Assembly (NCBI RefSeq): GCF_014279995.1
Contig: NZ_CP047935.1
Location: 1,819,494-1,883,493 of the forward strand
Direction: 5' to 3'
DNA: 64,000 nt
Source: Synechococcus sp. BIOS-E4-1
GTDB taxonomy: Bacteria > Cyanobacteriota > Cyanobacteriia > PCC-6307 > Cyanobiaceae
Shown here one piece after another: positions 24,477 through 60,654 of the stretch. The number at the start of each line of letters is the position of its first letter. Position 1 is the first letter of the stretch. The notes under the pieces are model-generated. The model did no database searches. It saw only the letters and a list, made by a program, of their open reading frames with translations, and was not told the DNA's origin. The position numbers and the translations under genes were made by a program.

Positions 24477-25025
24477 TCAGGCAGCACCGCCGCCGCCAGC
24501 ACCGGCAATGTCAAAGGCTCCTCCTGCTTTGACATTGGCAAGCAGAGTTCCGTCGAGGAACTGCTGGTCGAGCAGAATTAATGCAGAGGCACTGGAATCA
24601 GCAAGGCGCAAACGCTTCAGAACAAATCGGGCTTCTGCCTCTTCCTGCAACTGCTCGCCCACAAACCAATCGAGCATGGCTGTGGCAGCTCTGTCATTCT
24701 CCTTCTCACATAACGTGTAAATATTACTGATCGACTTAGTTACAGTTTTCTCCATTTCATACACCTTGTCAAAAAGTGCTTTAACGGATTGCCACTCCCT
24801 TTCGGGCGAGTCAATGGTAGGCAGCTGAACCTCACTTTCACTATCCACAAGATAGGAAATGAATCTTGAAGCGTGACCTCGCTCCTCGGTACTCTTATTG
24901 AGCATATAACTGGAAAAACCAATCAGATCTCTTTCGCGCAGCCAAATCGACATCGCAAGATATGTATGACTAGCTTGAAATTCAAGCGCAAGATGTTCAT
25001 TAATTGCCGAAGTATGCGATGCCAT
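24477..25025 (-). CDS. Ferritin-like iron storage protein
   Basis: 182 residues of a four-helix ferritin. Ferroxidase ligands are in the right places: E (LALEFQASHTYLAMS), EERGHASRFISYL (ExxH) and EQLQEEAEARFVL. The C-terminal tail is Gly/Ala-rich and disordered, unusual for ferritin. It resembles SynFtn-type proteins of marine Synechococcus, which oxidise Fe2+ and store it in a shell. The 275-bp upstream gap probably holds divergent promoters for it and accD. Confidence 0.85.
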   Translation of the reverse strand: MASHTSAINEHLALEFQASHTYLAMSIWLRERDLIGFSSYMLNKSTEERGHASRFISYLVDSESEVQLPTIDSPEREWQSVKALFDKVYEMEKTVTKSISNIYTLCEKENDRAATAMLDWFVGEQLQEEAEARFVLKRLRLADSSASALILLDQQFLDGTLLANVKAGGAFDIAGAGGGGAA

Positions 25026-36896: not shown

Positions 36897-37993
36897 ACTC
36901 CCTGGAGACAGCTTTTTTGCAGACACCTTTCCAGTCGCTGAGTGGAATCGTTCTGCAAACCGATCACCACCAACTCCAGACCTTGGGATCCTGCGGGTTT
37001 CCAGGCCTCTGATGGCGCCGACTCAAACCAGCTCTCAAGACGAGGACCCACCATCTGGATCTGAAGAGGCAGGGTTTTTCCCTCAATCCAGAGCCGTCCC
37101 TTGAGTCGAATCACATCGTGGTCGATCACGAAACTTTTGAGCAGCTGTTCGAGCTGATCACGCTTGAAACCTGCCTCCAGTCGAATCTGACCACTCACAG
37201 CCTCCACATGGGTGTGATCGTGATGGCCATGATGAGCGTGGTTATGGCCATGGCTTTGATGTTGATGGTCATCGTCAACGGGCGTGGATTCCTCCTGTGA
37301 AATCTCCATCCCCAGCACGAGCGCTGGATCGACAACGCCACGAGTGATGGCCAGGGTGACCGCTCCCGACCTCAACCGTTCAGCAAGCTGACGTTGTACG
37401 GACTCCATCTGGGGGACATCGAGACGATCAGATCGACTGATCAGTACAAGATCTGCAGCTTCGAGCTGATCACTAAACAACTCGTCGATAGCTGTGAGGT
37501 GATCCAGATTGGGGTCCTGCTCACGCTGACGTTCGAGGGCTGCGGGATCGCCAACAGGGCTTCCTGCACTGAGGGCTTCCCCATCGACAACGGTGACCAC
37601 TCCGTTCACGTGCACACGCTTACGGATGGCTGGCCACTCAAGAGCCTGTAACAACGGTCTGGGCAGCGCCAGGCCACTGGTTTCCACAACGATTCCATCG
37701 AGCTGATCAGAACGCTGCAGCAATGTCTCCATCGTCGGCAGGAAGTCGTCCTGAACTGTGCAGCACAAACAGCCGTTGTTGAGCTCCACCAACCGACCGT
37801 CAATCTCGTCGTCAGGACAGAAGCCACAGCTTCGAATCAGATCGCCATCGAGCCCGACCGTGCCAAATTCATTGACCATCACCGCCAGCCTCTGGCCGCT
37901 GTTCACAAGTAGATGTCGAAGAAGAGTTGTCTTCCCGGCTCCAAGAAAGCCTGTGATCACGGTGACAGGTAGTCGTGAAGGCATCAGCGACAC
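36893..37993 (-). CDS. cobW: CobW-family GTPase / metal chaperone
   Basis: 366 residues (363 if started at M4, 37984). GTP-binding motifs VTVITGFLGAGKTTLLRHLL (Walker A), GCLCCTVQDDF (metal-binding CxCC) and ETSGLALPRPLL. A His-rich loop near residues 245-265 (HQHQSHGHNHAHHGHHDHTH) would bind Zn, Co or Ni. The family inserts or escorts metals; in cyanobacteria this may serve cobaltochelatase or zinc allocation. The start overlaps the stop of the pentapeptide gene. Confidence 0.85.
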   Translation of the reverse strand: MSLMPSRLPVTVITGFLGAGKTTLLRHLLVNSGQRLAVMVNEFGTVGLDGDLIRSCGFCPDDEIDGRLVELNNGCLCCTVQDDFLPTMETLLQRSDQLDGIVVETSGLALPRPLLQALEWPAIRKRVHVNGVVTVVDGEALSAGSPVGDPAALERQREQDPNLDHLTAIDELFSDQLEAADLVLISRSDRLDVPQMESVQRQLAERLRSGAVTLAITRGVVDPALVLGMEISQEESTPVDDDHQHQSHGHNHAHHGHHDHTHVEAVSGQIRLEAGFKRDQLEQLLKSFVIDHDVIRLKGRLWIEGKTLPLQIQMVGPRLESWFESAPSEAWKPAGSQGLELVVIGLQNDSTQRLERCLQKSCLQGV

Positions 37994-43134: not shown

Positions 43135-43707
43135 TCAGAATGCTTCGATCGAGCGAATCAAGAGCTTGATCTCACCCGCTCGATAGCCGGGATTGGGCTC
43201 ACCATCGTCACCGAATCGTGAGTGCAACAACTGAAGACGCGTAATACACGATGGGTCAAAGCGAACTGGAATACTGACAGGTTTCGCTCGCACAACAGGC
43301 CGGAGAAGGTCAAAGGGAAGATCTACGATCGTGGTATCCGTTAACTCGGTGGCAACCGTTGTGACCCAACGCAATCCACCAGGAATTAACTCGGTGAGTC
43401 CGAACACGCCATCACGGCACGCAACTGCGAACTTGAAACTGCGTCCTTGCCCATCCAATCTCAGCCGCAGGCCTCTGTAGGAACTGAGATCCAGGGGCGG
43501 TCGAAACACCGGAGAACGGCAGCTCACGAAACCACCGCCTTCACTCACCACCTCGCCTTCAAGAACTAGACCCTGATCACTGAATCGGCAGCCCGCACGG
43601 CTGGACCCACCCATGATCGTGTCATTGAGACTGGCCCAGTCGCGAAAGGAGTCACCGGCAGCGATCACTCGAATTTGCGGTGGCTGTTGGTAGGGAGGTG
43701 TTGTCAA
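43135..43707 (-). CDS. CIA30-family protein (NDUFAF1-like)
   Basis: 190 residues. RDWASLNDTIMGGSSRAGCR and GGGFVSCRSP, with YRGLRLRLDGQGRSFKFAV, are the CIA30 domain signatures. Eukaryotic members help assemble complex I; the cyanobacterial role is unproven. The start overlaps the pgl stop by four bases. Confidence 0.8.
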   Translation of the reverse strand: MTTPPYQQPPQIRVIAAGDSFRDWASLNDTIMGGSSRAGCRFSDQGLVLEGEVVSEGGGFVSCRSPVFRPPLDLSSYRGLRLRLDGQGRSFKFAVACRDGVFGLTELIPGGLRWVTTVATELTDTTIVDLPFDLLRPVVRAKPVSIPVRFDPSCITRLQLLHSRFGDDGEPNPGYRAGEIKLLIRSIEAF

Positions 43708-44420
43708 AGACCTTCAGCAGCAGCCTGATCAGCGAGCACGAGAATCTCAGAGGCTGGCTGCACCAGCTTGGCAGGTGTGCGCTCCGGGGACTCCTCAGCA
43801 TCCATCAGCCGTGACAGAGCCTGGCGCTTGGCCTCTCCGCTCACCAGAAACACCACCTGGCGTGCAGCACTGAGAACGGGAGCCGTGAGAGTAATCCGCT
43901 CAAGCCCTTTGCCCCGGCCAATGGTGGTCCAGCGATCACAAACTCCGGGGGCCTCCGTTCCAGGAAACAGAGACGCCGTATGACCGTCATCCCCAAGGCC
44001 GAGCAACATCAGATCGAACACGGGTGGTTCGCCCAGGCAGACCTTGACCACCAGCTCAGCAAAGGCCTCGGCACTGGCTTCTGGAGAGGGCAGTTCAACA
44101 GTTGGAACGGGATGGAAACAGGCGCGGGCTCCTGGCTGATCCTGCTTGAGCAGGGTGTTGCGCAACATGCGTGCGTTGCTTGATTCATCATCAGCAGCCA
44201 CCCAGCGCTCATCGCCCAGGAAGACATCGACTCTGTCCCAGGGCAGGTGTTCCTGCCCCAGCAATGCATAGGCCAGAGCAGGGGTGTTGCCACCGGACAA
44301 GGCGATCTGCGCCCGGTCCCTTTGGTCAAGCGCCAGGTCGATCGCGGATCCAATGTGCTCGGCGGCTCGCCGAGCAAGATCCTGGGCTGATTGAACCTGC
44401 TCGATGCGATAAGAGCTCAT
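43704..44420 (-). CDS. pgl: 6-phosphogluconolactonase
   Basis: 238 residues from ATG 44420; the frame continues upstream into gnd but that is not this protein. IALSGGNTPALAYALL, VDVFLGDERWVAADDESSNARM and LGLGDDGHTASLFPG are the SugarP_isomerase motifs of Pgl. Hydrolyses 6-phosphogluconolactone in the oxidative pentose phosphate pathway, next to gnd, which catalyses the following step. Confidence 0.93.
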   Translation of the reverse strand: MSSYRIEQVQSAQDLARRAAEHIGSAIDLALDQRDRAQIALSGGNTPALAYALLGQEHLPWDRVDVFLGDERWVAADDESSNARMLRNTLLKQDQPGARACFHPVPTVELPSPEASAEAFAELVVKVCLGEPPVFDLMLLGLGDDGHTASLFPGTEAPGVCDRWTTIGRGKGLERITLTAPVLSAARQVVFLVSGEAKRQALSRLMDAEESPERTPAKLVQPASEILVLADQAAAEGL

Positions 44421-44430
44421 CGCGCGGCCC

Positions 44431-45849
44431 TCACTTGAGCCACTCGGTGTGGAAGATGCCGTCTTTGTCCACGCGCTCGTACGTATGGGAACCGAAGCAG
44501 TCACGCATGGCCTGCACAAGGTTCTGGGGGAGGCGTGCCGTGCGGTAGCTGTTGATGTAATCGAGAGTGCTGCTTAGGCAGGGCACTGGAACGCCGGCAG
44601 CGGCTGCACCGGCGACCACTTTCGCCAGTCCGGGCAGACGACGGTTCACCTGATCGGCGAACCACGGATCGATCAACAGGTTCTCCAGTTGGGGGTTGGC
44701 GTTGAACGCATCCTGAATCCGCTTCAGCAAGCGGGCACGGATGATGCAGCCACCTTTCCAGATCTGGGCAATCGACGGCATGTTCAGGTTGTAGTTGTGC
44801 TCAGCGGATGCAATCCGCAGCAGCTCCATTCCCTGGGCGTAGCTGGCCATGCAGGCCAGAACCATGGCATCCATCAACGGAGACATGCCATCAGCCGTTG
44901 TGCCCATGTCGAACGCCTGAATGGCCGGCCCCTTCAGAATCGGCTCAGCCTTGATGCGCTGCTCCTTCATGGAGCTCATCACCCGTCCATTGAGGGCGGC
45001 GTAGATCGTGGGCACCGAGGCGCCCATCTGCAGAGCACTGACAACAGTCCAGAGCCCCGTTCCCTTCTGCCCAGCCTTGTCCTGAATCTTGTCCACGAGC
45101 GGAGTGCCATCATCCGGATCCATGGTGCGCAGACACACCTCGGTGATTTCAACGAGATAGGACGACAGCTCCTCGGTGCTGTTCCAGTGCGCAAACACAT
45201 CCGCCATCTCGAGGCTGCTCATGCCACCGACCCGCTTCATCAGGTCGTACCCCTCGGCCAGAATTTGCTCAATGCCGTATTCAATTCCGTTGTGCACGGT
45301 CTTGACGAAGTGACCTGAGCCTCCCGGGCCGATGTAGGTGACACAAGGACCATCCTCAACCTGGGCCGCCATCTTGCAGACCAGACTTTCGATGGCGTCA
45401 TAGGAGGACTTGGTCCCTCCTGGCATCATGCTCGGCCCCTCCAGAGCACCTTTGGCTCCACCCGAGACGCCCATCCCGATGAATCCAAACCTTTTACTTT
45501 CCAGTTCAGCAACGCGTCGTTCGGTGTCGTGATATTCCGAATTACCACCATCAATCAATAGATCTCCCTCATCCAAATAGGGGGAAATCTGCTCGATGAC
45601 TGCGTCTACAGGTCCTCCAGCCTTGACCATCATCAAGATGCGTCGTGGACGTTCCAGTTTGTTGACGAAATCCTGGAGGTCAGTGGCTCCCTGAATGTTT
45701 TTGCCCGCCCCACGGCCGGACATGAATTCTTCCGTCTTGGAATAAGTGCGGTTGTAGACGACGCTCGAGAAACCATTGCGCTCAGCGTTGAGGACAAGGT
45801 TTTCCCCCATCACGCCTAGACCAATCAGACCGAAGTGGGCCTTGGACAT
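44431..45849 (-). CDS. gnd: 6-phosphogluconate dehydrogenase, decarboxylating
   Basis: 472 residues from MSKAHFGLIGLGVMGENLVL (ATG 45849; another ATG at 45864 is five codons up). NADP loop GLGVMGENL, IDGGNSEYHDTERR, GVSGGAKGALEGPSMMPGG and HNGIEYG...IAEGYDLM-type core are all present. Yields ribulose 5-phosphate, CO2 and NADPH at night. Confidence 0.95.
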   Translation of the reverse strand: MSKAHFGLIGLGVMGENLVLNAERNGFSSVVYNRTYSKTEEFMSGRGAGKNIQGATDLQDFVNKLERPRRILMMVKAGGPVDAVIEQISPYLDEGDLLIDGGNSEYHDTERRVAELESKRFGFIGMGVSGGAKGALEGPSMMPGGTKSSYDAIESLVCKMAAQVEDGPCVTYIGPGGSGHFVKTVHNGIEYGIEQILAEGYDLMKRVGGMSSLEMADVFAHWNSTEELSSYLVEITEVCLRTMDPDDGTPLVDKIQDKAGQKGTGLWTVVSALQMGASVPTIYAALNGRVMSSMKEQRIKAEPILKGPAIQAFDMGTTADGMSPLMDAMVLACMASYAQGMELLRIASAEHNYNLNMPSIAQIWKGGCIIRARLLKRIQDAFNANPQLENLLIDPWFADQVNRRLPGLAKVVAGAAAAGVPVPCLSSTLDYINSYRTARLPQNLVQAMRDCFGSHTYERVDKDGIFHTEWLK

Positions 45850-45936: not shown

Positions 45937-47232
45937 TCAGATCACACTTCCATCAGGAATCGATGCATTTTTTACAACGACCACGATCCCATTACGGATG
46001 TAGAAGCCCAGCTCGGCGCGATCGGCTTCTTCAACATTGTCCTTGTTCACGATCGTGACATTGGAACCAATGCGCGCGTTTTTGTCGAGAATGGCACGCT
46101 TGACCGTGGTGCCCTGGCCCACCCCGAGGGGGATACCACCACGCTCTCTGAGCACTGCACGCTCTTCGCTGGACTCAAAGAAATCAGCACCCATGACGAG
46201 GGTGTCTTGAAGCACCACATCAGACTCAAGCCTGCTGCGGACACCAAGAACGCAGTGATGAACACTGCACGACTTCAGAATCGACCCCTCGCCGATAATT
46301 GAATTGGTGATCTGAGCATCAACAAGTTTGCTCGGAGGCAGATAACGCGGCCGTGTGTAGATCGGGAATTTCTCGTCGTAGAAGCTGAATGGGGGTTTTG
46401 GTTGTTGCGTCAGAGCAAGGTTGGCCTCATAGAACGCACCAATCGTGCCGATGTCTTCCCAGTAGTCATCGAAGACATAGCTCTGGAGCTTGTCACCTTG
46501 AGCAAGCGATTCAGGAATCACTTCCTTGCCGAAATCCTTGTGGTTGGTGTTGCCATCGAGAAGATCGAAGAGTGTCTGACGACTGAACACGTAGATCCCC
46601 ATCGAAGCCAGATAGGGACGTTCCTTAGCGGATTCGGGACTGAGCCCGAAGCGGGCTGTGTCCACGGCCATCTCAAGCAGGGAGTCACCCTTCGGCTTTT
46701 CGCGGAATTCCTGAATATTGCCGTCGTTATCCGTTCTCATCAGACCGAAGGATTCAGCCTGTTTGGCATCAACTGGCAGTGCCGCAACAGTCAGATCGGC
46801 TCCAGTGCGTCGGTGATGCTCAATGAAACGGCTGTAGTCCATGCGGTACAGCTGATCCCCGGACAGGATCAGATATTCGTCAACATCCCATTCCTGAAAC
46901 AGCCACTGATATTTGCGCACTGCATCAGCGGTACCTTCGAACCAGGAAGGACTGTCGGGAGTCTGCTGAGCGGCAAGGACCTCGACGAATCCGCCACCGA
47001 AGGAATTACTGAGATTAAACGTCTGGCTTAGGTGACGATTCAGGGAAGCACTGTTGAACTGCGTCATCACGTACATCTTGTTGATGTCGGAGTTGATGCA
47101 GTTGCTGATCGGAATATCGATCAGTCGGTACTTGCCGGCCAGAGGAACAGCGGGCTTGGCCCGCATCTTGGTAAGGGGGTATAGACGCGTTCCCGCTCCT
47201 CCCCCCAGAATGATGGCCAGAACACGCTTCAT
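45937..47232 (-). CDS. glgC: Glucose-1-phosphate adenylyltransferase
   Basis: 431 residues. [20 protein letters not shown] and [20 protein letters not shown] form the nucleotidyltransferase core; [10 protein letters not shown] and a C-terminal beta helix follow ([20 protein letters not shown]). Makes ADP-glucose for glycogen; activated by 3-phosphoglycerate and inhibited by phosphate in cyanobacteria. Confidence 0.95.
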
Positions 47233-47363
47233 GCCGCCCCCGCAGATCGGCTTTGCCGGGCAAACCTACCGGACTTTTGGGGCTCCCAACCGATGCATGG
47301 GCCAGATCCGACAAGAATGCTGGGAATCAGATTTAGACAGGGAAATTCAGTGCCGGAAATGAC

Positions 47364-50669: not shown

Positions 50670-50984
50670 TTAACCCTCCTGATCGGCCACATCAGCACCA
50701 GAACCGAGTTCGTTATCAAGCTGCTGACCAGGCTTCCAACCACTGGTCCAGATCTCACGGCAACGGGCGTTGAGGCTCTGGGAATCGAGTCCCCAGCCGG
50801 CAACCACCTTCTGGATATCCTGTTTAATGTCATCGGCGCCTGGGAAATCGCCGTATCGCATCACAAGTCTTGCCGCCACAGTGAGCTGCTCAGGGCCTGG
50901 ATCGCCCTGATGACCGAGCAAAGCATCCACCTGATCACGATCCGTTGCATAGAGCGGATGCGTCTGAGAGGTCTGTTCACTCAT
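50670..50984 (-). CDS. DUF3288 family protein
   Basis: 104 residues, no signal. YATDRDQVDALLGHQGDPGP and LVMRYGDFPGADDIKQDIQKV, WGLDSQSLNARCREIW fit a cyanobacterial DUF3288 protein. Acidic and soluble. The 3' end lies close to rpe, convergent. Confidence 0.7.
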   Translation of the reverse strand: MSEQTSQTHPLYATDRDQVDALLGHQGDPGPEQLTVAARLVMRYGDFPGADDIKQDIQKVVAGWGLDSQSLNARCREIWTSGWKPGQQLDNELGSGADVADQEG

Positions 50985-51046
50985 GGGGAAAATTCATGCC
51001 TGCACAACAGAATGTCATTGAAAGGAATGATGGTCCTGATCAGTCA

Positions 51047-51078
51047 AACAAAAAGCCGACCGGAAAGACAGGTCGGCT
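51047..51078 (-). terminator. Terminator of the porin gene
   Basis: Stem AGCCGACC (51054-51061) with GGTCGGCT (51071-51078), loop of nine; on the minus strand followed by TTTTTG. It lies 62 bp past the porin stop. Confidence 0.78.
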
Positions 51079-51139
51079 CGAATCTTCATCGGTTGATAGC
51101 AGAGATGCCTGATCAACCAATCAAACAGAAATTGTTTGA

Positions 51140-52903
51140 TCAGAAGGTGAATGTTGTGCGAAGCACTCCACCGAACTGATTGAAGGTGCCATCTTTTCCA
51201 CCACGGCCAAGGTAAGTTAATTCACCCAAAGGACGGCTCAGATAAAAGACTGCTGGAGTCACAGTGATGTTATCCGTAACCTGAAAACCGTAGTAGGCCT
51301 CCATGACATAATTCCCGTCATACGGAGTTTCCCCGCCCTTCAGTGCAGTCGCGAATGTTGGTTGTCCAACCGCGAAACCAAGACTGTTGCCCTGCAGGAA
51401 TGCGTCATCCCAGTGCAGTGAAACCTGCCAGGACTGGGAAGTTGTCACAATGCGATCAGGGGAACCATCGGTATCGTTCAGAGTGTTGATACCCCAACCC
51501 GCACTGATTGCAGGAATCCAACCTGTATCTTCGGGCTGCCAATAACCGGAAAGGGCAAAGGCATTCAGAGAGCTGTCACTCGTCGCATCGCTGAGGATAT
51601 AGCTCAGCTGGGTAAACGCAGTGGAGTAGGGAACGAGCGAGGCATCCTGCAGGTACGAGTAAACACCAGCAATGCCCCATTGCTCAGCCTGATAACCGAT
51701 CTGAACAGTACCGACTCCAGCTGAACCATCCGTAGCAATTCCTCCCTCCTGAGGATTGCCGTCCATGCCGTTTTGAGAAACGTACTGAACGCCGGCCACA
51801 AAACCATCTTTTTCGTAATTGAGTGCGGCACCAGGTCCCTGGGTCTTGTTGTAAGCACCAGGTGCACCGTTGAGCGTCAGGACATCAAGAACCGTGTTGC
51901 CATCACCGGAGGGATAAACAGATGGCCACATCGGCATCATGTCATCCTGACCGACGTTGGCACCAACCACAAAGCTGAAACTGCTTCCGATCGGAGCTGT
52001 GTAAAAGATCTTGTCGATGTAGATCGAATCACTGCTGTTGCCGCCATCCAGGGAATCTGAAGCGACTTCGAGAGTCGACAGAGAGGAAGGAGCGCCGAAA
52101 AACGCTGTATTTCCAAAATTGCCGGCTCGGAGCGTTGTCGTCAGCAGATCCTTACCAGTGAAGCTGGTATTGAGGTTGATCTGCGTGTCGTAGTTGAAAG
52201 TTGTCGCTCCAAACTCTCTGTTCTCATAGTCCTGAGCATTCTGACCGCTGTAGAACAGCTCAACAATGGATTGATCGCTGAACGGAGTGTTCTCAAATAG
52301 ACCGTCGTCAGGATCTAAGAGGAAGTCATTGATCTCAGTAGTGGTCAGACCCAATTCGAAGACGTCGTTGAGCCCGAACAGGTCGTATTCATTGAGATCA
52401 CCACCAAAAGTGTTGGCACCAAGCACGAAGCTTGTCTGACCCTCGAGTTTGGTGGTGGTGGAGAACTGCATTGCTTCCAGTTCGCCAACACGAGCTTCCA
52501 GACCGTCAACACGGCCCTTGACGATGGCGAGTTCCTTTTCGAACTCCTTCATGAGGCGCTTGAGCTCGTCGGTCACTTCGGTGACGCGGTCGAGACAGGC
52601 GTTCAACAGTGCGGCCGCCTCAAAGCGGGTCATGGCACGATTGCCGCGGTAGGTGCCGTTGGGATAACCGGCAACACAGCCGTAGCGCTCAATCAGGTTG
52701 CTGAGAGCCTGATAGGCCCAGTCGGTCGGGTAGACGTCAGAGAACTGGGTGATGCTGGTGACCTGCTCCTCTGCCGCTGAATCGTGCGATACGGATGCAT
52801 AACTGGAAACGCCGCTCACGTTCATTTCAGAGGCGTTAGACACCGCAGGTACCAAAAGGCCCAGGGCAGCAGGAGCAACTAGCAGTTGCTTGAAAAGTTT
52901 CAT
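51140..52903 (-). CDS. som: SLH-domain OprB-type outer membrane porin (Som)
   Basis: 587 residues from ATG 52903; ATG 52936 adds 11 improbable residues. Signal peptide (about 1-24), SLH domain (QFSDVYPTDWAYQALSNLIE, then MTRFEAAALLNACLDRV, about 55-115), a coiled-coil linker (ELKRLMKEFEKELAIVKGRV) and a beta-barrel from about residue 155 ending in a C-terminal Phe, as barrel proteins do. It is a major outer-membrane pore of marine cyanobacteria, tied to peptidoglycan by the SLH domain. The ribosome binding site carries a Yfr1-matching stretch. Confidence 0.9.
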   Translation of the reverse strand: MKLFKQLLVAPAALGLLVPAVSNASEMNVSGVSSYASVSHDSAAEEQVTSITQFSDVYPTDWAYQALSNLIERYGCVAGYPNGTYRGNRAMTRFEAAALLNACLDRVTEVTDELKRLMKEFEKELAIVKGRVDGLEARVGELEAMQFSTTTKLEGQTSFVLGANTFGGDLNEYDLFGLNDVFELGLTTTEINDFLLDPDDGLFENTPFSDQSIVELFYSGQNAQDYENREFGATTFNYDTQINLNTSFTGKDLLTTTLRAGNFGNTAFFGAPSSLSTLEVASDSLDGGNSSDSIYIDKIFYTAPIGSSFSFVVGANVGQDDMMPMWPSVYPSGDGNTVLDVLTLNGAPGAYNKTQGPGAALNYEKDGFVAGVQYVSQNGMDGNPQEGGIATDGSAGVGTVQIGYQAEQWGIAGVYSYLQDASLVPYSTAFTQLSYILSDATSDSSLNAFALSGYWQPEDTGWIPAISAGWGINTLNDTDGSPDRIVTTSQSWQVSLHWDDAFLQGNSLGFAVGQPTFATALKGGETPYDGNYVMEAYYGFQVTDNITVTPAVFYLSRPLGELTYLGRGGKDGTFNQFGGVLRTTFTF

Positions 52904-52908
52904 GGGAT

Positions 52909-52917
52909 TCCTCACAC
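52909..52917 (-). promoter_or_regulatory. Candidate Yfr1 sRNA pairing site over the porin ribosome binding site
   Basis: On the porin mRNA the leader reads GGTGTGAGGAATCCC then ATG. The stretch GTGTGAGGA (complement TCCTCACAC) is fully complementary to the conserved unpaired CUCCUCACAC element of Yfr1, a picocyanobacterial sRNA known to bind porin mRNAs in Prochlorococcus. GAGGA is also the Shine-Dalgarno sequence, so pairing would block translation. The Yfr1 gene itself is not in this window. Confidence 0.6.
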
Positions 52918-53067
52918 CAAAAAAAGAGGAACACAAATATTAAGAAGAAAGATCGAGACCGCAAGGGGTCGAAACAATCCTGCATTCAAATGATTCACAA
53001 AGCCGTCTAATGCAGTCGCACAAGGAAGACTCAGGAGACCAGTGAGTCAGGAGGGAAAACTTGGAAC

Positions 53068-53385
53068 TCAATAAGGGCTAATCTTCTTGATATCATCATA
53101 TAATTGTTTTGCAAGTTTATTGTTATAGCCCGTGCACAATTCGCGCATACAAAGAGCATCAAAGATGGAAAAAAGCGCAGGCAACAATGTCCACGAAAAA
53201 ACAAGGAAAATAATACCACTGTTGCGATCATTCAACCAAAATCGATGAAAACCAAACCATCCCAGAAGCAGGGCATAGACGACACCTAAAGAGGGCTGTC
53301 TGCAACGTAATTCAAACTCGTTTTCAAAGACCATCTGCTCACCAAGAGACATTTTTTTAGCAAGATGTTGATACTCTTTTCTCAT
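53068..53385 (-). CDS. TM2-domain membrane protein
   Basis: 105 residues from the ATG at 53385 (MRKEYQHLAKKMSLGEQMVF). The TM2 pattern LGVVYALLLGWFGFHRFWLN, GIIFLVFSWTLLPALFSIFD shows two membrane helices around a short turn. The N-terminal half is soluble. AT-rich codons; unknown role. Confidence 0.68.
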   Translation of the reverse strand: MRKEYQHLAKKMSLGEQMVFENEFELRCRQPSLGVVYALLLGWFGFHRFWLNDRNSGIIFLVFSWTLLPALFSIFDALCMRELCTGYNNKLAKQLYDDIKKISPY

Positions 53386-53800
53386 CTGTAGCCAAAGTAA
53401 GATTACTGGCAACAGGGTAACAATGACAGGACGAGAGATCAAGCTTGCTGCAGAAAATCACAAGAGAATTCTCTGATAAGCCTCCACCAGATATAAAATG
53501 CCTTGAAAACCGGAACAACAGGGTGACCAAGGCAAAGACGAGCTGACAAGAAAACGCCTTAAGCAAATACAAAGAAGGCCAGGTAACAATTTCTGCCAAA
53601 GTGAGCTGACTGAAACTCAGCAGAACGTGCGGATCGAAAAATTGAAGACCATCATTATCATGACCGAACTCGTCAGCCAAGGACAGAAAAGAAATCAAAA
53701 GAATAGGGTTTTCAGCGACCTCTCCGGTTAAGGTTAATTGTGTATGAGTCAAACTGATGCCCCATTGCAGCAAATGTGGCAAAATGCCTAATTTAGGCAT
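53357..53800 (-). CDS. Hypothetical protein, doubtful
   Basis: 147-residue stop-free frame overlapping the start of the TM2 gene by 29 bp. The N-terminus (MPKLGILPHLLQWGISLTHT) and middle (LSFSQLTLAEIVTWPSLYLL, then FSCQLVFALVTLLF) look protein-like, but the last 30 residues do not. AT-rich DNA makes a chance frame of this length unlikely but possible. No family recognised. Confidence 0.3.
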   Translation of the reverse strand: MPKLGILPHLLQWGISLTHTQLTLTGEVAENPILLISFLSLADEFGHDNDGLQFFDPHVLLSFSQLTLAEIVTWPSLYLLKAFSCQLVFALVTLLFRFSRHFISGGGLSENSLVIFCSKLDLSSCHCYPVASNLTLATDEKRVSTSC

Positions 53801-53920
53801 TAAACGCCTGCTGAGGAGCTTCGGACACCTTCTTGAAGCGCTATTCCATTCAATTTCAAACTTACTGAAAACAAAAAAACAAAAATCAGCAAGTCAAATA
53901 ACAATGAAAACGAGTGAAAA

Positions 53921-53945
53921 ACCTTGGCCCTGAACAGGCCAAGGT
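53921..53945 (-). terminator. Terminator of the 53979 gene
   Basis: Perfect 9-bp stem ACCTTGGCC (53921-53929) with GGCCAAGGT (53937-53945), loop CTGAACA, then TTTTC on the minus strand. Lies 33 bp after the stop of the gene at 53979. Confidence 0.75.
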
Positions 53946-53978
53946 AATTAAATCAAAGAGCATATTCACATTCAGGTC

Positions 53979-54479
53979 TTAAGCAACGATCCAAGCATCT
54001 TCTTGCTCGTCTCTTTGGATCGTTCCAGACAAATTATCTTTCCAATGTTCATAAGTTACATCGAACTCACGGTCCCAAAGGGCAGGAATGTCAATCACTG
54101 ACTTCTTGAAGTAACCATCCTGAATTGAGCTGATGTAAAGCCTACGAAGAGCGACCCAGCGTGGTTCGTTCTTGTGTGACATCCTGAGCATAATATCTTG
54201 TTTCTCACCATCGATATCTTCATCAGGGATACAATAAAAATCCCCTACTCTTCGCTTAGCTCGTAAAAAATGACCCTCTTCGAGCAAGTGATTAGTAATC
54301 GCATTTTGACCGTCTTTTTGATCCAATAATTGGAACAACTTCCTAGCTCGCTTAAGACCAATTTGATATCTTCTATTGGCAAGCCATTGCGTAATTGCAG
54401 TACGACGGGTAATTGCTATTAAAACAAGCACAAGCGCAATGAGCAGTTCAATTTCAATAATCAGCATGATTACATACAA
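53979..54479 (-). CDS. Hypothetical protein with one membrane anchor
   Basis: 166 residues. N-terminal hydrophobic helix (IIEIELLIALVLVLIAI, about 6-24) then a soluble basic/acidic domain (RKLFQLLDQKDGQNAITNHL, then RRVGDFYCIPDEDIDG and ALRRLYISSIQDGYF). No family recognised. A terminator follows. It sits next to feoA in an AT-richer stretch. Confidence 0.55.
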   Translation of the reverse strand: MYVIMLIIEIELLIALVLVLIAITRRTAITQWLANRRYQIGLKRARKLFQLLDQKDGQNAITNHLLEEGHFLRAKRRVGDFYCIPDEDIDGEKQDIMLRMSHKNEPRWVALRRLYISSIQDGYFKKSVIDIPALWDREFDVTYEHWKDNLSGTIQRDEQEDAWIVA

Positions 54480-54732
54480 TCAAATCTCAAATTAGCAGCG
54501 ATTCAGAGGTCGACAAGCAACATCAACTACGAGGTATCAAATGTGACAATTCAGTCCTAATCTCAGAACGCATCTAAAGGATTTGCTTGTTTTTCGAAAA
54601 AAAGTGCAAAGATCATCAGTAAAAAATTCTACCGAAGTAGTCCTTTTCAGTCATTTTTCAGTCTTCTTTAATTGCCAGATCAATCTTAGAGCTCTAGCAT
54701 TTTTACAGAGTTGCAACAGCCCATCCACGCAA

Positions 54733-54993
54733 ATGAACTTAAGTGAGTTAGACGTCCATCATTCAGCAACAGTCGTTGGTGTCAGTAGCGACGGAAGTGA
54801 CTTGAGCAATTCCTTCAAGGATCGTCTGGAAGCAATGGGAATAAGGAAAGGTAGAACGGTACGAGTAATGCGCAAGGCTCCTGGTGGAGATCCTTACGAA
54901 GTAAGAGTTGGCAGCACCACTGAAATTGCTATACGAAAGTCTGAGGCAGCTCTGGTTGAAATCACAGATGTCTTAGACACCAAAAAATCATGA
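54733..54993 (+). CDS. feoA: Ferrous iron transport protein A
   Basis: 86 residues from ATG 54733 (MNLSELDVHHSATVVGVSSD); the frame opens further up but is unrelated. SH3-like FeoA domain: LEAMGIRKGRTVRVMRKAPG, DPYEVRVGSTTEIAIRKSEA. FeoA assists the FeoB channel; 43 bp ahead of feoB. Confidence 0.88.
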   Translation: MNLSELDVHHSATVVGVSSDGSDLSNSFKDRLEAMGIRKGRTVRVMRKAPGGDPYEVRVGSTTEIAIRKSEAALVEITDVLDTKKS

Positions 54994-55036
54994 CCCTGTC
55001 CCTTCATTCTTTTTCAACTAGTTCTAAAACTTCATC

Positions 55037-56881
55037 ATGATCACCGCAGAAACTGGTAAAACAATCCAGACAAAAAACGAATTACCAAGGATCGTTTTTA
55101 TAGGTCAACCTAATACAGGTAAATCAACTTTCTTCAATCGTGTCACCAACGCGACTGCAGGAGTCGCTAACTGGCCTGGCTTGACGGTTGATTTCATGCA
55201 GGCGAAAGTTGAACGCGATGGGAAAACCGTCGAATTTGTCGACCTGCCTGGAATCTACGATCTCGATGGATTCACTGAGGATGAGAAGGTTGTTCAGGAT
55301 TTTTTACAGCAATACAATTTTGATTTAGTTGTTTGCGTTGTTAATGCATCTCAGATTGATAGACAAATACTTATTCCACTGCAACTCAAAAAACTTGGTA
55401 TTCCGAGTTTAGTTGCACTCAACATGGCTGATGAGGTTAAACGCTTTGGGGTGAAAATTAACACCTAGAAGCTGTCTCAGTACCTTGAAATGCCTGTCTT
55501 TACGATCAGTGCAAAATACGGCGCTGGCTGCAGTCTGGCAATCGATGGGATCTGGAATACTGTTAACGACATCAAAGATTCATACAAGGTATCCGAGCTT
55601 GTTGAATTCTGCCGAGAGAATAAGATTAGCGATGAAGAAATTCAAGAATCCCTAGATCAAGGTATTGAAATGCCACCAGAAAATCTGGTGACATTTACGA
55701 ACCGAATGGATGCAGTGCTTCTGCATCCGATTTTCGGATTGCCAATCTTTTTCCTGACCATGTTGGCCCTCTTCCTCTTTATCTGGAATGTGGGCATGCC
55801 AGCGCAGGATCCGGTTGGGGACTTCACGGATTGGTTACAAGCAACTGTCTTAGAACCAGGATTGAGCTTTCTCCCTGAGATCGTTAAAGATTTTGTAATT
55901 AGTGGACCTTATACAGGATTCGCTTCGTTGCTCGGCTTTGTGCCACTTGTTGCCTTCTTCTTTGTGGTGATGACGGCTCTCGAAGACAGTGGTTATCTCT
56001 CAAGAGCTGCATATCTGATGGACAACATCATGCGCAAGGCAGGTCTTGACGGCCGAGGATTCGTCATGCAGTTGTTTGGATTTGGCTGTAATGTCCCTGC
56101 GATCATGGGAACAAGAACCATTCGTTCACGCAGTCAGAGATTGCTTTCGATTCTGGTTATCCCATTCGCATTATGTTCTGCAAGACTACAAGTTTTTGTT
56201 TTCTTCCTGGGAATCATCCTGCCCAGCTATTTGGGTGCTGTAGCCCTATGGCTGCTTTACATCATCAGCTTTATCGTGGCATTTGTGATGGCGATGATTT
56301 TCAATGCCAGTGGACAGTTCAAGTCAAAAGATCCGTTTGTCATTGAATTGCCCCCTTACAGAACTCCAACATTCAAACAAGTTGCATTGAATGTATGGAG
56401 TGAAATGAAGACGTTCGTTCAAAAACTATCAGTCTTCATGATTATTGGTACGACGATCACTTGGTTCCTTACTAATTATCCTGGTGGATCCGAAGGATTG
56501 AATACCTACGCAGGACAAATCGGAACTTTCTTCCAACCCTTGATGGCTCCTTTGGGCATCAATCCGTTGTTGACTGTTTCACTCATTATTGGCTTCGTCG
56601 CCAAGGAAGTTCAATTGGCTGCAGTTGCGACAATGTATGGATTGAGTGAAGGAAGTGATGCACTCAAAACAACACTGGGAGGTGCTATCAACTTCCGGCA
56701 AGGTTTCAGTTACTGTCTTTTCAGCCTTCTGTACGTTCCATGCTTAACGACTGTTGCAACCATTTGGGGTGAAACAAAGTCAGCCAGGTTCACCCTATTT
56801 TCTGTTGCTGTATCAATGATCGTTGCCTGGGTTGTTGCTTTTGGATTCTATCAGATATACGGTTTGATCTTCACCTCTTAA
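55037..56881 (+). pseudogene. feoB: Ferrous iron transporter FeoB interrupted by one in-frame amber codon
   Basis: Two frames in the same register, 55037-55468 and 55490-56881, are separated only by TAG at 55466-55468. The first part is the G domain: VFIGQPNTGKSTFFNRVTNA (G1), ANWPGLT (G2), VDLPGIYDL (G3), VALNMADEV (G4). The second begins KLSQYLEMPVFTISAKYGAG (G5) and continues with the membrane part, including GFGCNVPAIMGTR. Without the stop the protein is 614 residues, normal for FeoB. A CAG or GAG to TAG change would explain it. Options are recent inactivation, sequencing error, split subunits or suppression; the ATG at 55490 could start the second part. Confidence 0.85.
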
Positions 56882-56899
56882 ATCCAATAAACTTAAAAC

Positions 56900-56935
56900 C
56901 CGATGGTATTTCCATGAATTGCCATCGGTTTTTTT
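56900..56935 (+). terminator. Terminator after feoB
   Basis: Stem CCGATGG (56900-56906) with CCATCGG (56922-56928), loop of 15, then a run of seven T. Ends the feo transcript about 20 bp after the stop. Confidence 0.75.
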
Positions 56936-57146
56936 ATTGTCTGTTCTGCATCATGACATCGATATCCACAAGTTGGATGCAATCATCGAGAATCACCATT
57001 GCCGGTTAACAATTTAAAGCGAAACAAGTACATTTACTGAAGGGAATTCGATCCCGATATCTTTTTACTAATTGTTTACTGTGAAATCTGCGACTAATAT
57101 TTTGGAAAACATTACATTCTAATCAATCAAAGTAATGATGATTTAA

Positions 57147-57839
57147 TCATGCAGCTCTATGTTCCAGGGGTGTAAAGTCCCAACCTATTGGAGTTGAAGA
57201 GATATTTTTTTCTCGATGAGTCTGATAAAGGTCTTCAATCTCAATGCAAGCTTTGTCATAGGCATACCAACCCATCATGCGCCTTGAATGTGCTCGACCT
57301 CTTTTATCAACAGACTGATCCACCGTGACACCATTGGTTTCAGCACTCTCAAAAGCGCTTAAAAGAGGAATTTGAGAGTTTAAAACATGAATACCAAAAC
57401 CTTCAAGGATTTCAATGGCTGAATCTGCTGAAGATTTTTTACGCGAATCAACCTTAACCAACAAAGCAGCATAAGGAATACGATAATTGTTTAACAACGT
57501 CGACATTTCAACAGTTAATTCTAACGAGCGACTCTGAGGAGTCGTAGGAAGGACAATAATATCAGAGCCTTCAACAAGATTTTTAAGTTCTTCTTCGTTG
57601 CTGCTTGCTTGACCATCTGTCACAACAATATCCGCACCTCTAGCTGCTTTAGCTGCTGCTTCAATGGGAATCACGGGGTAGGGAAGCAATTCACGTGCTG
57701 CATAAGCAGTTGCCGATCGATTTCTGTCCGCATCAATCAAAGCAACTTTCTTTTGTTGATGGGCCCAAATGGCAGCAAAATGAACGCTCGTACATGTTTT
57801 TGCAACTCCTCCTTTCTGACCGAAAACAGTGATAAACAT
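57147..57839 (-). CDS. Orphan ParA-family ATPase
   Basis: 230 residues. Deviant Walker A FGQKGGVAKTCTSVHFA (KGGVAKT), Walker A' IDADRNRSATAY, Walker B IVVTDGQ. No ParB or parS is adjacent. ParA proteins of this small type position plasmids, carboxysomes (McdA) or other cargo. A partner gene may lie elsewhere. AT-rich neighbourhood; flanked by wide gaps. Confidence 0.82.
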   Translation of the reverse strand: MFITVFGQKGGVAKTCTSVHFAAIWAHQQKKVALIDADRNRSATAYAARELLPYPVIPIEAAAKAARGADIVVTDGQASSNEEELKNLVEGSDIIVLPTTPQSRSLELTVEMSTLLNNYRIPYAALLVKVDSRKKSSADSAIEILEGFGIHVLNSQIPLLSAFESAETNGVTVDQSVDKRGRAHSRRMMGWYAYDKACIEIEDLYQTHREKNISSTPIGWDFTPLEHRAA

Positions 57840-58199
57840 TGTTTGGAAGGAATTTTTAATATCATTACGTCAACAAGCAAGATGTCAAGTGCTTTTAAGC
57901 TCCATGTCATATCCGAAACATAATGAAGAATCAGCTGTTCCTGCATGAGTCACAGGAAAAAAAGAGGATCAACAAGATCACAAATCAAATATTTACTTGA
58001 TCAAGATGGGCCAAAGCCAAAACAAGCCAAAATATGCGATCGGAACTCACCGAAAGCTCAACCGGGCAAGCCACAGATTGATAGCAATCAACGAGTTGTC
58101 TAGAGTTCTTGCTTCTTGATTGACATGAAATTGCTCATCCATCCATGTGATGTTCTACTCAAGAGAGATCGTTGGACGAATCCCAACGCCAATAAAAAA
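57840..58199. other. Intergenic stretch after the ParA gene start
   Basis: No convincing open frame. It probably holds the ParA promoter on the minus strand. Nothing else recognised. Confidence 0.4.
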
Positions 58200-58223
58200 C
58201 GGGGCGGTATCCCTATCGCCCCG
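58200..58223 (-). terminator. Strong hairpin terminator, minus strand
   Basis: Perfect 7-bp GC-rich stem CGGGGCG / CGCCCCG (58200-58206 / 58217-58223), loop GTATCCCTAT, then GTTTTTTA on the minus strand. It must end a leftward RNA that begins upstream (58224-58540), where no clear gene exists. Confidence 0.75.
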
Positions 58224-58317
58224 ACTGAGAACAAATGTCTGAGGCAAGGAATCCAGACACGTTAATTATCACGAATAATGAGGGACGACTGTGGATCCAC
58301 TGGTCTATCCGGAGGAT

Positions 58318-58446
58318 TCATCCATCAATCGTGCCAGCACTCCTCCTGACTTCAGCGCGAATCAGACCGAAATAAGAGGCAGCCAGCAACAGCAGATGAC
58401 ATGAGCCTTTGCTTGGAATGCCTGACCAGTGCACAAACCAATGCAC
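58318..58446 (-). CDS. Doubtful 42-aa ORF before a strong terminator
   Basis: GTG at 58446 opens a frame with VHWFVHWSGIPSKGSCHLLL then LAASYFGLIRAEVRRSAGTI. One short hydrophobic run. It may be a small membrane peptide or the region may instead be an sRNA ending at the terminator at 58200. Confidence 0.22.
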   Translation of the reverse strand: MHWFVHWSGIPSKGSCHLLLLAASYFGLIRAEVRRSAGTIDG

Positions 58447-58547
58447 GATCTGAGCTCAGTGGCAGGAACCTGAGAATGATCAAACAGTCACGGCTCGTTG
58501 CATGAAATCACACGTGATGATCACTGCTTCTGGCCAGATTACTCTCT

Positions 58548-58688
58548 ATGAACGAAAATTCAAACGAAACTCTGCCTCAACAGGAGGACGTTGAAAGCTT
58601 CACCGCTTGGATGAAACGCAACCGTCTCGACAGTGGTCAGCCGTGGTTGTTTTATGGCGAAGATGAGTTGTTCGAAGATGTGGTCTAA
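58548..58688 (+). CDS. Small acidic hypothetical protein, 46 aa
   Basis: ATG 58548 to TAA 58688. MNENSNETLPQQEDVESFTA, WMKRNRLDSGQPWLFYGEDE, LFEDVV: acidic ends with a basic middle, compact and protein-like in codon choice. No family recognised. Confidence 0.55.
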   Translation: MNENSNETLPQQEDVESFTAWMKRNRLDSGQPWLFYGEDELFEDVV

Positions 58689-58914
58689 GCAAAATCGGCC
58701 TGAAAATATCTAATCTATTATTGAACGAATTGAATGAATAGTAAGCCATGAGCTTATCAACCCCATGGTTTTCCAGCACCTTTAAATTTGCCACAAAAAC
58801 ACAAAACAAATCTCAATTCATCCGATCGAGAAACAATTAATTGGCAATATTATAAAAATTAGTACCCATCAATTTTACGGCCATTAATTATTCACAACGC
58901 GAGCAATGGCGCGA

Positions 58915-59256
58915 CTAGGCAACTCGATTCTCGCCAGAAATGGCTTGACTCAGTAGCCCGGGAGAAACATTTCCTGTGTTGGAATCAAGGAACCACTGTT
59001 CGAGCTCTATGAATTGAATCATCTCAAAAATTTCATTCACAGACGCCAAGTCTTGTTGCATGAATTCCATAACCACTCTGATTTTTGCATAAACTTCGAT
59101 CTCTGATCCGCAAAAATATCGAACAGGGCCTTGAACACCTCGACTAATGTATTGGTTGAGGAATCTTTCAAGGCTGTCTTTCTCGTATCCATCCGCAATC
59201 GAACTCTTTAGCTCAATACATTTTATTGTGAAATAGCTGACTGATGCATCAGACAT
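58915..59256 (-). CDS. Hypothetical protein, 113 aa
   Basis: Soluble, helical. YFTIKCIELKSSIADGYEKD and VYAKIRVVMEFMQQDLASVN. No signal or membrane segment. It may be part of an accessory stretch. No family recognised. Confidence 0.45.
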   Translation of the reverse strand: MSDASVSYFTIKCIELKSSIADGYEKDSLERFLNQYISRGVQGPVRYFCGSEIEVYAKIRVVMEFMQQDLASVNEIFEMIQFIELEQWFLDSNTGNVSPGLLSQAISGENRVA

Positions 59257-59625
59257 GGATCAAAAAAAATTTGCGTCATGCTAGTGGTCTTGATTCTGCC
59301 TCTGCGGACAACCATATACACCCTTCATCTACTTAAAGCACTATGAGCAGGCCTGACTGGCCAGAAGAAAGACCCGATGTTTAGATAAAGAGAGTCCTAT
59401 TCTCTAGAAAAAACTTTCAACCAAATTACGATAAAGGCCATCAGGGTTTGTCATTACCATAGATCAACAGCACGAAGTTTGACCATAAACTTTGTCAAGC
59501 ATGACTGGATGATTGCTACTACTGCAAAACGATCTAGCCACAAGAAACAAATATTTTACAACCAAAGAGTTGAATTTGGATCAAAAATGATCAACATTCC
59601 ATCCTTATTTTAACCTGAACCTTGT
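59257..59625. other. AT-rich intergenic stretch before polyphosphate kinase gene end
   Basis: Nothing convincing found on either strand: no open frame of note, no tRNA-like arm, no strong hairpin. Confidence 0.45.
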
Positions 59626-60579
59626 TCAATAGGGGTAGCCATTAGGAACAAAGAATTGTTCGTTAATGGGAGGGCGTGCATAATCACCTTTTTTGGGTCT
59701 GGGAGGAAGCTTGATCCCAGGTGGAGTCATGTCTTCCCATGGCACCTTAGTGAGTACATGGCGAAGACAATTGAGTCTGGCTCTCCTCTTATCATCTGCT
59801 TCAACAGTGAACCATGGAGCCTCAGGGATATTAGTTCGCGTAAACATTTCATCCTTTGCCCTTGAAAAATCAACCCAACGATTACGAGCCTCAAGATCCA
59901 TCGGACTCAACTTCCAACGGCGTGTGGGATCATCAATGCGCGACTGAAAACGCATTTCCTGCTCGGTGTCGCTGACAGAAAACCAATACTTGAGAACAAG
60001 AATGCCGCTGCGCACCAGCATCCGTTCAAATTCAGGAGCATCATCAAGAAACTGTTCGACCTGTTCAGGGCTACAGAAGCCCATCACACGCTCAACACCG
60101 GCTCGGTTGTACCAGCTTCGATCGAATACAACAATCTCACCAGCAGCAGGAAAATGTTCCACATAGCGCTGGAAATACCACTGGCTTTTTTGGCGCTCCG
60201 TTGGTGTTCCCAATGCCACAACCCTGCAACCTCTTGGATTCAGTGGTTCGGTCAATCGTTTGATCGTGCCGCCTTTTCCAGCAGCATCACGCCCTTCAAA
60301 GAGAACGATCATCCGATAGCCGGTTTCACGAATCCAGTACTGCATTCTGACCAGATCAGTCTGCAGGCGGATCAATTCAGCCTCATAAAGCTTCTTGTTC
60401 AGCCTTTTAATCTTTTGATGTTGATCTTCCATGAGATCGCCAAGCAGCTCTGATGGACTGTCAATGTCCTGTGCACTGCCGCCGAGGCTTGCAAGAGCAA
60501 CTTCAGAGGCGCGGCCTGACCGACTTTTGTCCTTGGCTTGATCGTGTTTTTTTGCCTTGCTCTTGTCCTTGTTGCCCAT
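59626..60579 (-). CDS. ppk2: Polyphosphate kinase 2 family protein
   Basis: 317 residues. Lys-rich N-terminus (about 1-30), then Walker A GRDAAGKGGTIKRL, and FDRSWYNRAGVERVMGFCS with the lid/Walker B elements; DPTRRWKLSPMDLEARNRW follows. PPK2 enzymes use polyphosphate to phosphorylate ADP or GDP (or the reverse). One-domain class I or II; exact nucleotide unknown. Confidence 0.9.
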   Translation of the reverse strand: MGNKDKSKAKKHDQAKDKSRSGRASEVALASLGGSAQDIDSPSELLGDLMEDQHQKIKRLNKKLYEAELIRLQTDLVRMQYWIRETGYRMIVLFEGRDAAGKGGTIKRLTEPLNPRGCRVVALGTPTERQKSQWYFQRYVEHFPAAGEIVVFDRSWYNRAGVERVMGFCSPEQVEQFLDDAPEFERMLVRSGILVLKYWFSVSDTEQEMRFQSRIDDPTRRWKLSPMDLEARNRWVDFSRAKDEMFTRTNIPEAPWFTVEADDKRRARLNCLRHVLTKVPWEDMTPPGIKLPPRPKKGDYARPPINEQFFVPNGYPY

Positions 60580-60654
60580 GTTCTGAACAAATCCGTTCCT
60601 ATTAGTGGCAGAAGACGTGACTAGCTCACCAACAGCTCCAGTTTTTCTCAGATT

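Follow-up and report, generated by a model that had tools for sequence, protein, structure and literature searches.

A single in-frame TAG in feoB of Synechococcus sp. BIOS-E4-1, probably a very recent nonsense allele

The feoB gene of Synechococcus sp. BIOS-E4-1 is interrupted by one in-frame TAG, and the question that this locus raises is whether the gene was disabled very recently, is misrepresented in the assembly, or is still translated in some form. The locus was studied within a stretch of 64,000 nucleotides, here called the window, to which all positions given without a contig name refer. On the forward strand, feoB occupies 55037-56881 and consists of 614 codons, counting the in-frame TAG, followed by a TAA at 56879-56881. 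The open frame starting at ATG 55037 encodes 143 amino acids and ends at codon 144, the TAG at 55466-55468. The same frame is open again from 55469 to the TAA. Its first ATG past the stop is codon 152 (55490-55492), from which an open frame of 463 codons extends to the end of the gene. This feoAB locus probably comes from a marine Synechococcus that belongs to the CRD1 clade.

The upstream piece (55037-55468) corresponds to the G domain with motifs G1-G4 and lacks G5, the motif labels G1-G5 being those that we take to apply to this protein. It matched Pfam FeoB_N with an E-value of 2.1e-41, and the match covered positions 2-126 of the 156-position profile. The downstream piece (55490-56881) carries G5 with the remaining part of the G domain, a linker and the membrane domains Gate (6.3e-34) and FeoB_C (1.7e-14), so that the five G motifs do not occur in one chain. 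Solved NFeoB sequences aligned across the TAG region. With X at the stop, the whole frame scored 542.8 bits against the NCBIfam feoB model TIGR00437, for which the cut-off is 315.65. All domains of a TIGR00437 FeoB transporter (FeoB_N, Gate and FeoB_C) are thus found here across two frames with feoA ahead; the difference is that the frame is cut by one TAG and no single protein is predicted. The feoB match search found no second feoB in the genome. An earlier note, made from the letters of this DNA, had described a single TAG between the G4 and G5 motifs of a feoB at these coordinates, with intact, in-register sequence on both sides. The position and description proved correct, and the domain matches in both pieces together with the overall score bear out the intactness.

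The same note placed the gene between feoA and a terminator, and both flanks were confirmed. The feoA gene (54733-54993, forward strand) ends 43 bases upstream of feoB and encodes an intact protein of 86 amino acids that matched Pfam FeoA (PF04023) at 2e-19; such a neighbor is expected of a genuine feoB. In tblastn searches feoA was found at 92-97% in six close relatives and at 66% in two more. Downstream, an intrinsic terminator on the forward strand at approximately 56900-56936 consists of a hairpin, whose outer stem has 9 pairs, and a T run after it. The hairpin folds at −16.3 kcal/mol with a z-score of −4.66, though it was absent from the list produced by a simple terminator scan.

For comparison with relatives we used a genus sample of 31 genomes, this one included, of which 11, again including this one, contain feoB. 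None of the ten other feoB matches had an internal stop. They comprise eight orthologues with 78-98% identity and two distant sequences with 43-45%. A frame arising by chance can be dismissed since all eight orthologues are full length without a stop. The six closest (G028, G016, G013, G025, G008 and G030) resemble the protein studied here at 94-98% identity and differ from it in being full length with a Gln codon at position 144. In the codon alignment this position is Lys in the next two sequences and Glu in the two distant ones. The codon of the nearest relative, G028, differs from TAG at one base, which agrees with the earlier view that the gene is one base away from a functional one. A separate scan of contigs for feoB gave seven loci, three of them in Synechococcus; the other four are distant and were left out of the comparisons. 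As judged from these alignments, the TAG is private to this genome among the genomes searched, and its absence from all ten other feoB sequences is what a recent nonsense allele predicts.

Gene order was conserved as well. The feoAB neighborhood was colinear with that of G028 over window positions 50670-60600, in three blocks, and with those of G025, G008 and G016, with gaps; in this respect the locus is like those of its intact close relatives in all four whose flanks were compared. In the stretches compared from G001 and G015, feoB was kept and its surroundings were in another order or unmatched. The region around feoAB (52001-60000) is A+T-rich, with 42-44% G+C compared to 53-60% in the rest of the window, and includes a gene for a ParA-like ATPase at 57147-57839. 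It is island-like, yet colinear among the four close relatives.

The evolutionary constraint on feoB was strong on both sides of the stop. Between this gene and that of G028, 8.4% of the bases differ, but only 10 of 613 residues. The dN/dS ratio was 0.021 overall, 0.009 before the TAG and 0.024 after it, and the overall value ranked seventh from the bottom among the 47 gene pairs of the window that reach 180 amino acids. Decay has thus not accumulated, in agreement with a recent nonsense allele. When changes were polarised with five outgroups, leaving out eight synonymous changes that could not be assigned, the branch leading to this genome had 17 synonymous and 1 nonsynonymous changes before the TAG and 47 and 7 after it, in total 64 and 8 with the stop itself not counted. 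The sister branch had 8 synonymous and no nonsynonymous changes before the TAG position, and 61 and 4 after it. After the TAG, the ratio of nonsynonymous to synonymous changes was 7:47, not significantly different from the 4:61 of the sister (Fisher p = 0.22), giving no significant relaxation of constraint. The segments before and after the TAG did not differ significantly either (Fisher p = 0.67). A wholly neutral branch should have accumulated about 208 nonsynonymous changes, and with 8 seen no more than 6.9% of the branch would have been neutral (95% upper limit), a bound that presumes uniform rates across sites and does not distinguish whether the loss took place in nature or in culture. 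The low dN/dS on both sides and the small neutral share imply that the stop is very recent, that it is an error in the consensus, or that the gene still works. Unrelaxed constraint would fit recent loss, and equally continued function or a base-calling error.

Continued function could take two forms, readthrough of the TAG or translation of the gene in pieces. The former would require a near-cognate tRNA to decode UAG, giving full-length FeoB in reduced and perhaps regulated amounts. The strong constraint downstream of the TAG would be expected under this explanation, and the Gln, Lys or Glu codons of the relatives at position 144 are in its favor. There is also precedent: according to the available text of PMC7918605, readthrough takes place at some in-frame stops of bacteria, with dN/dS kept below 1, and an in-frame stop is a poor indication of a pseudogene where the gene shows no further degradation. 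The TAG in feoB resembles the putative readthrough stops of that work in the low dN/dS on either side. However, the same text describes a filter against sequencing errors that keeps stops shared by orthologues of at least two species, and the feoB TAG does not pass this filter, as it is common to no other genome examined. No orthologue examined has the stop, from which selection for readthrough might have been demonstrated, and many of the readthrough events detected in that study are suggested to last only short periods (PMC7918605). The decoding machinery argues against suppression too. Among 44 tRNA genes, detected with RF00005 and typed by anticodon with ARAGORN, none had a CTA anticodon; a tRNA gene that escapes RF00005 would have gone unseen. 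Release factor 1 is present, with prfA scoring over the cut-off, and TAG is still in use as a terminator, the window genes that reach 180 amino acids, 47 in all, ending in TGA (39), TAA (5) and TAG (3). Conservation of the stop in relatives, which recoding of UAG would predict, was not observed. Recoding or suppression of UAG found no support in the tRNA anticodons, RF1 or the use of terminator codons, and we consider functional readthrough improbable.

Translation in two pieces would start again at ATG 55490 or at an internal start further downstream, ATG 55706, and the pieces, or the membrane part by itself, would transport iron. The first of these codons is in frame and lies 21 bases past the stop. 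Its Shine-Dalgarno pairing is nearly absent (−0.4 kcal/mol), with 83% of the local background as strong or stronger. This is weak evidence against a restart, since pairing is a poor guide in this operon: it is likewise missing at the feoA and feoB starts (1.2 and 0.8). The in-frame ATG 55706 lies just before the first membrane segment and has an SD-like energy of −7.2 kcal/mol, so that a membrane-only product might be initiated there; energies of −7.2 kcal/mol or lower are found at 7.5% of random local sites. Both codons are ordinary conserved Met codons in close relatives, ATG 55490 being Met in all eight orthologues with 78-98% identity and ATG 55706 in all six close relatives, so their presence here is uninformative. 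A membrane-only feoB match in another genome of the family, described below, would be in keeping with such an arrangement. On the other side, the break falls inside the G domain rather than at a domain border, and no relative examined is split at codon 144: a conserved split was absent from the ten genus relatives and from the broken family copies inspected. A two-piece FeoB is in our view very improbable. The chance is similarly small as for readthrough that the UAG acts as a leaky brake, by which near-cognate decoding or restart would turn the Fe(II) channel down, not off, in a cyanobacterium of the low-iron ocean. Nothing found here gives positive support to readthrough or restart. The earlier note offered a very recent stop, an artefact, suppression or translation as two pieces as options. 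The first gained from the analysis, through the private stop and the lack of significant relaxation. Suppression lost ground because of the missing CTA-anticodon tRNA and the presence of RF1, and translation as two pieces did so more weakly, because the next ATG has no SD-like site and no relative is split there.

An error of the consensus or of base calling would mean that feoB is intact, the TAG being either absent from the DNA or the product of a mixed base in the culture. The lesion is a single substitution in a gene otherwise under full constraint, as expected if the base were wrong. No second lesion points to real decay, and feoB is, on our reading, the sole true gene with a stop among 67 frames of the window. 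Substitution errors are, however, rare in Illumina-based assemblies, and the genome consists of one contig of 3,314,220 bases rated 99.99% complete. The available text of PMC7522525 describes a BIOS-E4-1 assembly built from Illumina reads and closed manually except for three gaps; the single contig would agree with this description if those gaps had been filled with N. An error therefore seems unlikely, if less so than continued translation.

We consider a very recent nonsense allele of the sole feoB found in this strain to be the likely explanation. This reading is based on the private stop, the low dN/dS, the neutral share of at most 6.9%, the lack of a suppressor tRNA and the presence of RF1, as well as on the absence of a second feoB, the presence of a FutA-like gene and the sporadic occurrence of broken feoB in the family. 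In this scenario, the single feoB copy of the feoAB locus would have gained one nonsense substitution very recently, possibly in culture. Translation would stop after 143 residues. Because the product would contain neither G5 and the part of the G domain still to follow nor any of the membrane channel, Feo is predicted to have lost its Fe(II) uptake. The remainder of feoB would look intact because there has been too little time for decay.

Loss of Feo need not be lethal, given that a gene with a predicted role in ferric-iron binding remains. It encodes a protein of the FutA/IdiA kind (C1:1359870-1360535), whose best match among solved structures was a putative iron ABC transporter substrate-binding protein (1.6e-79). 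Loss of Feo would be most tolerable in iron-replete culture medium, in which the strain is grown. The FutA-like protein and the iron-replete medium together would explain why the mutation is tolerated. Three points are inferred here: the TAG exists in the DNA, FeoB no longer functions, and the strain copes with the loss. Should the TAG be genuine, the strain is a natural feoB mutant whose relatives hold feoB under very strong constraint, and caution is warranted when it serves as a model of iron adaptation. The event is ordinary in itself. In the available text of PMC7522525, FeoA is listed among the specific genes of all three CRD1 strains and FeoB is not named in that passage. A break of feoB in one strain would account for its absence there; homologues outside the CRD1 clade, or a passage that gives examples only, would do so as well.

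Broken copies of feoB also occur elsewhere in the family. A sample of 300 genomes gave feoB matches in 87, this one included; G013, G016 and G030 were not part of this sample and were covered by the genus search. Four other genomes were flagged with a stop in feoB. In G208 the flagged stop is the natural end of the gene and was rejected as a break. The gene of G236 (G236:C4:511361-513148, L080) is broken in the membrane part, that of G281 (G281:C30:1477-3261, L079) near the C-terminus, and that of G245 (G245:C100, L081), a draft genome, has several lesions. We further inspected nine partial or two-piece matches, leaving out the two-piece matches of G060, G127, G192 and G214; some matches of this kind come from draft assemblies. 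In G124, G145 and G175 feoB was found in one open frame, and in G130 it is cut by the contig end. The feoB of G053 (L090) is broken by a frame change near residue 520, and that of G300 (L088) carries a stop in addition to a frame change that falls between residues 170 and 199. Matches in G101, G133 and G163 were partial, that of G163 being distributed over two contigs. None of the family copies inspected has a break at codon 144. Altogether five other picocyanobacterial feoB genes are broken, at differing places: a single TAG is responsible in two, a frame change in one and several lesions in two.

The partial match in G133 (G133:C23:1459-2595, L087) covers only the membrane part, in an open frame of 414 amino acids, and the part of the contig that was read (6,000 of 7,269 bases) showed no G domain. 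The match could be a relic, could reflect an assembly gap, or could represent a FeoB that consists of the membrane part only.

With one private stop in a constrained gene, the allele described here is like sporadic nonsense alleles and young bacterial pseudogenes in general, and we found no difference from these. Among the best 20 of 22 literature matches for split FeoB no title dealt with it, and PMC8749426 contains no occurrence of 'split' or 'pseudogen'. For broken feoB, the word feoB was absent from the best 20 of 150 literature matches. The available parts of PMC9124967, PMC10119275, PMC3877281 and PMC9723758 bear on background only.

The lesion check of the window compared a greedy set of 67 reading frames with the nearest relative, and four of these, feoB included, had an internal stop. 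The frames at 43707-44609 and 58918-59271 were rejected as broken genes because the stop precedes the apparent start, and that at 46928-47314 because it is an ORF of 129 residues overlapping another gene in another frame. On our reading of these frames, feoB appears to be the only true gene among them with an internal stop. Two window genes, both named by eye, stood out by their synonymous divergence from the nearest relative: one for a CobW-like GTPase (36920-37993) with a dS of 2.0, and one for a ferritin-like protein (24528-25025) with a dS of 1.0. The other 45 window gene pairs had dS values of 0.14-0.62, and the CobW-like and ferritin-like genes may have been exchanged by recombination.
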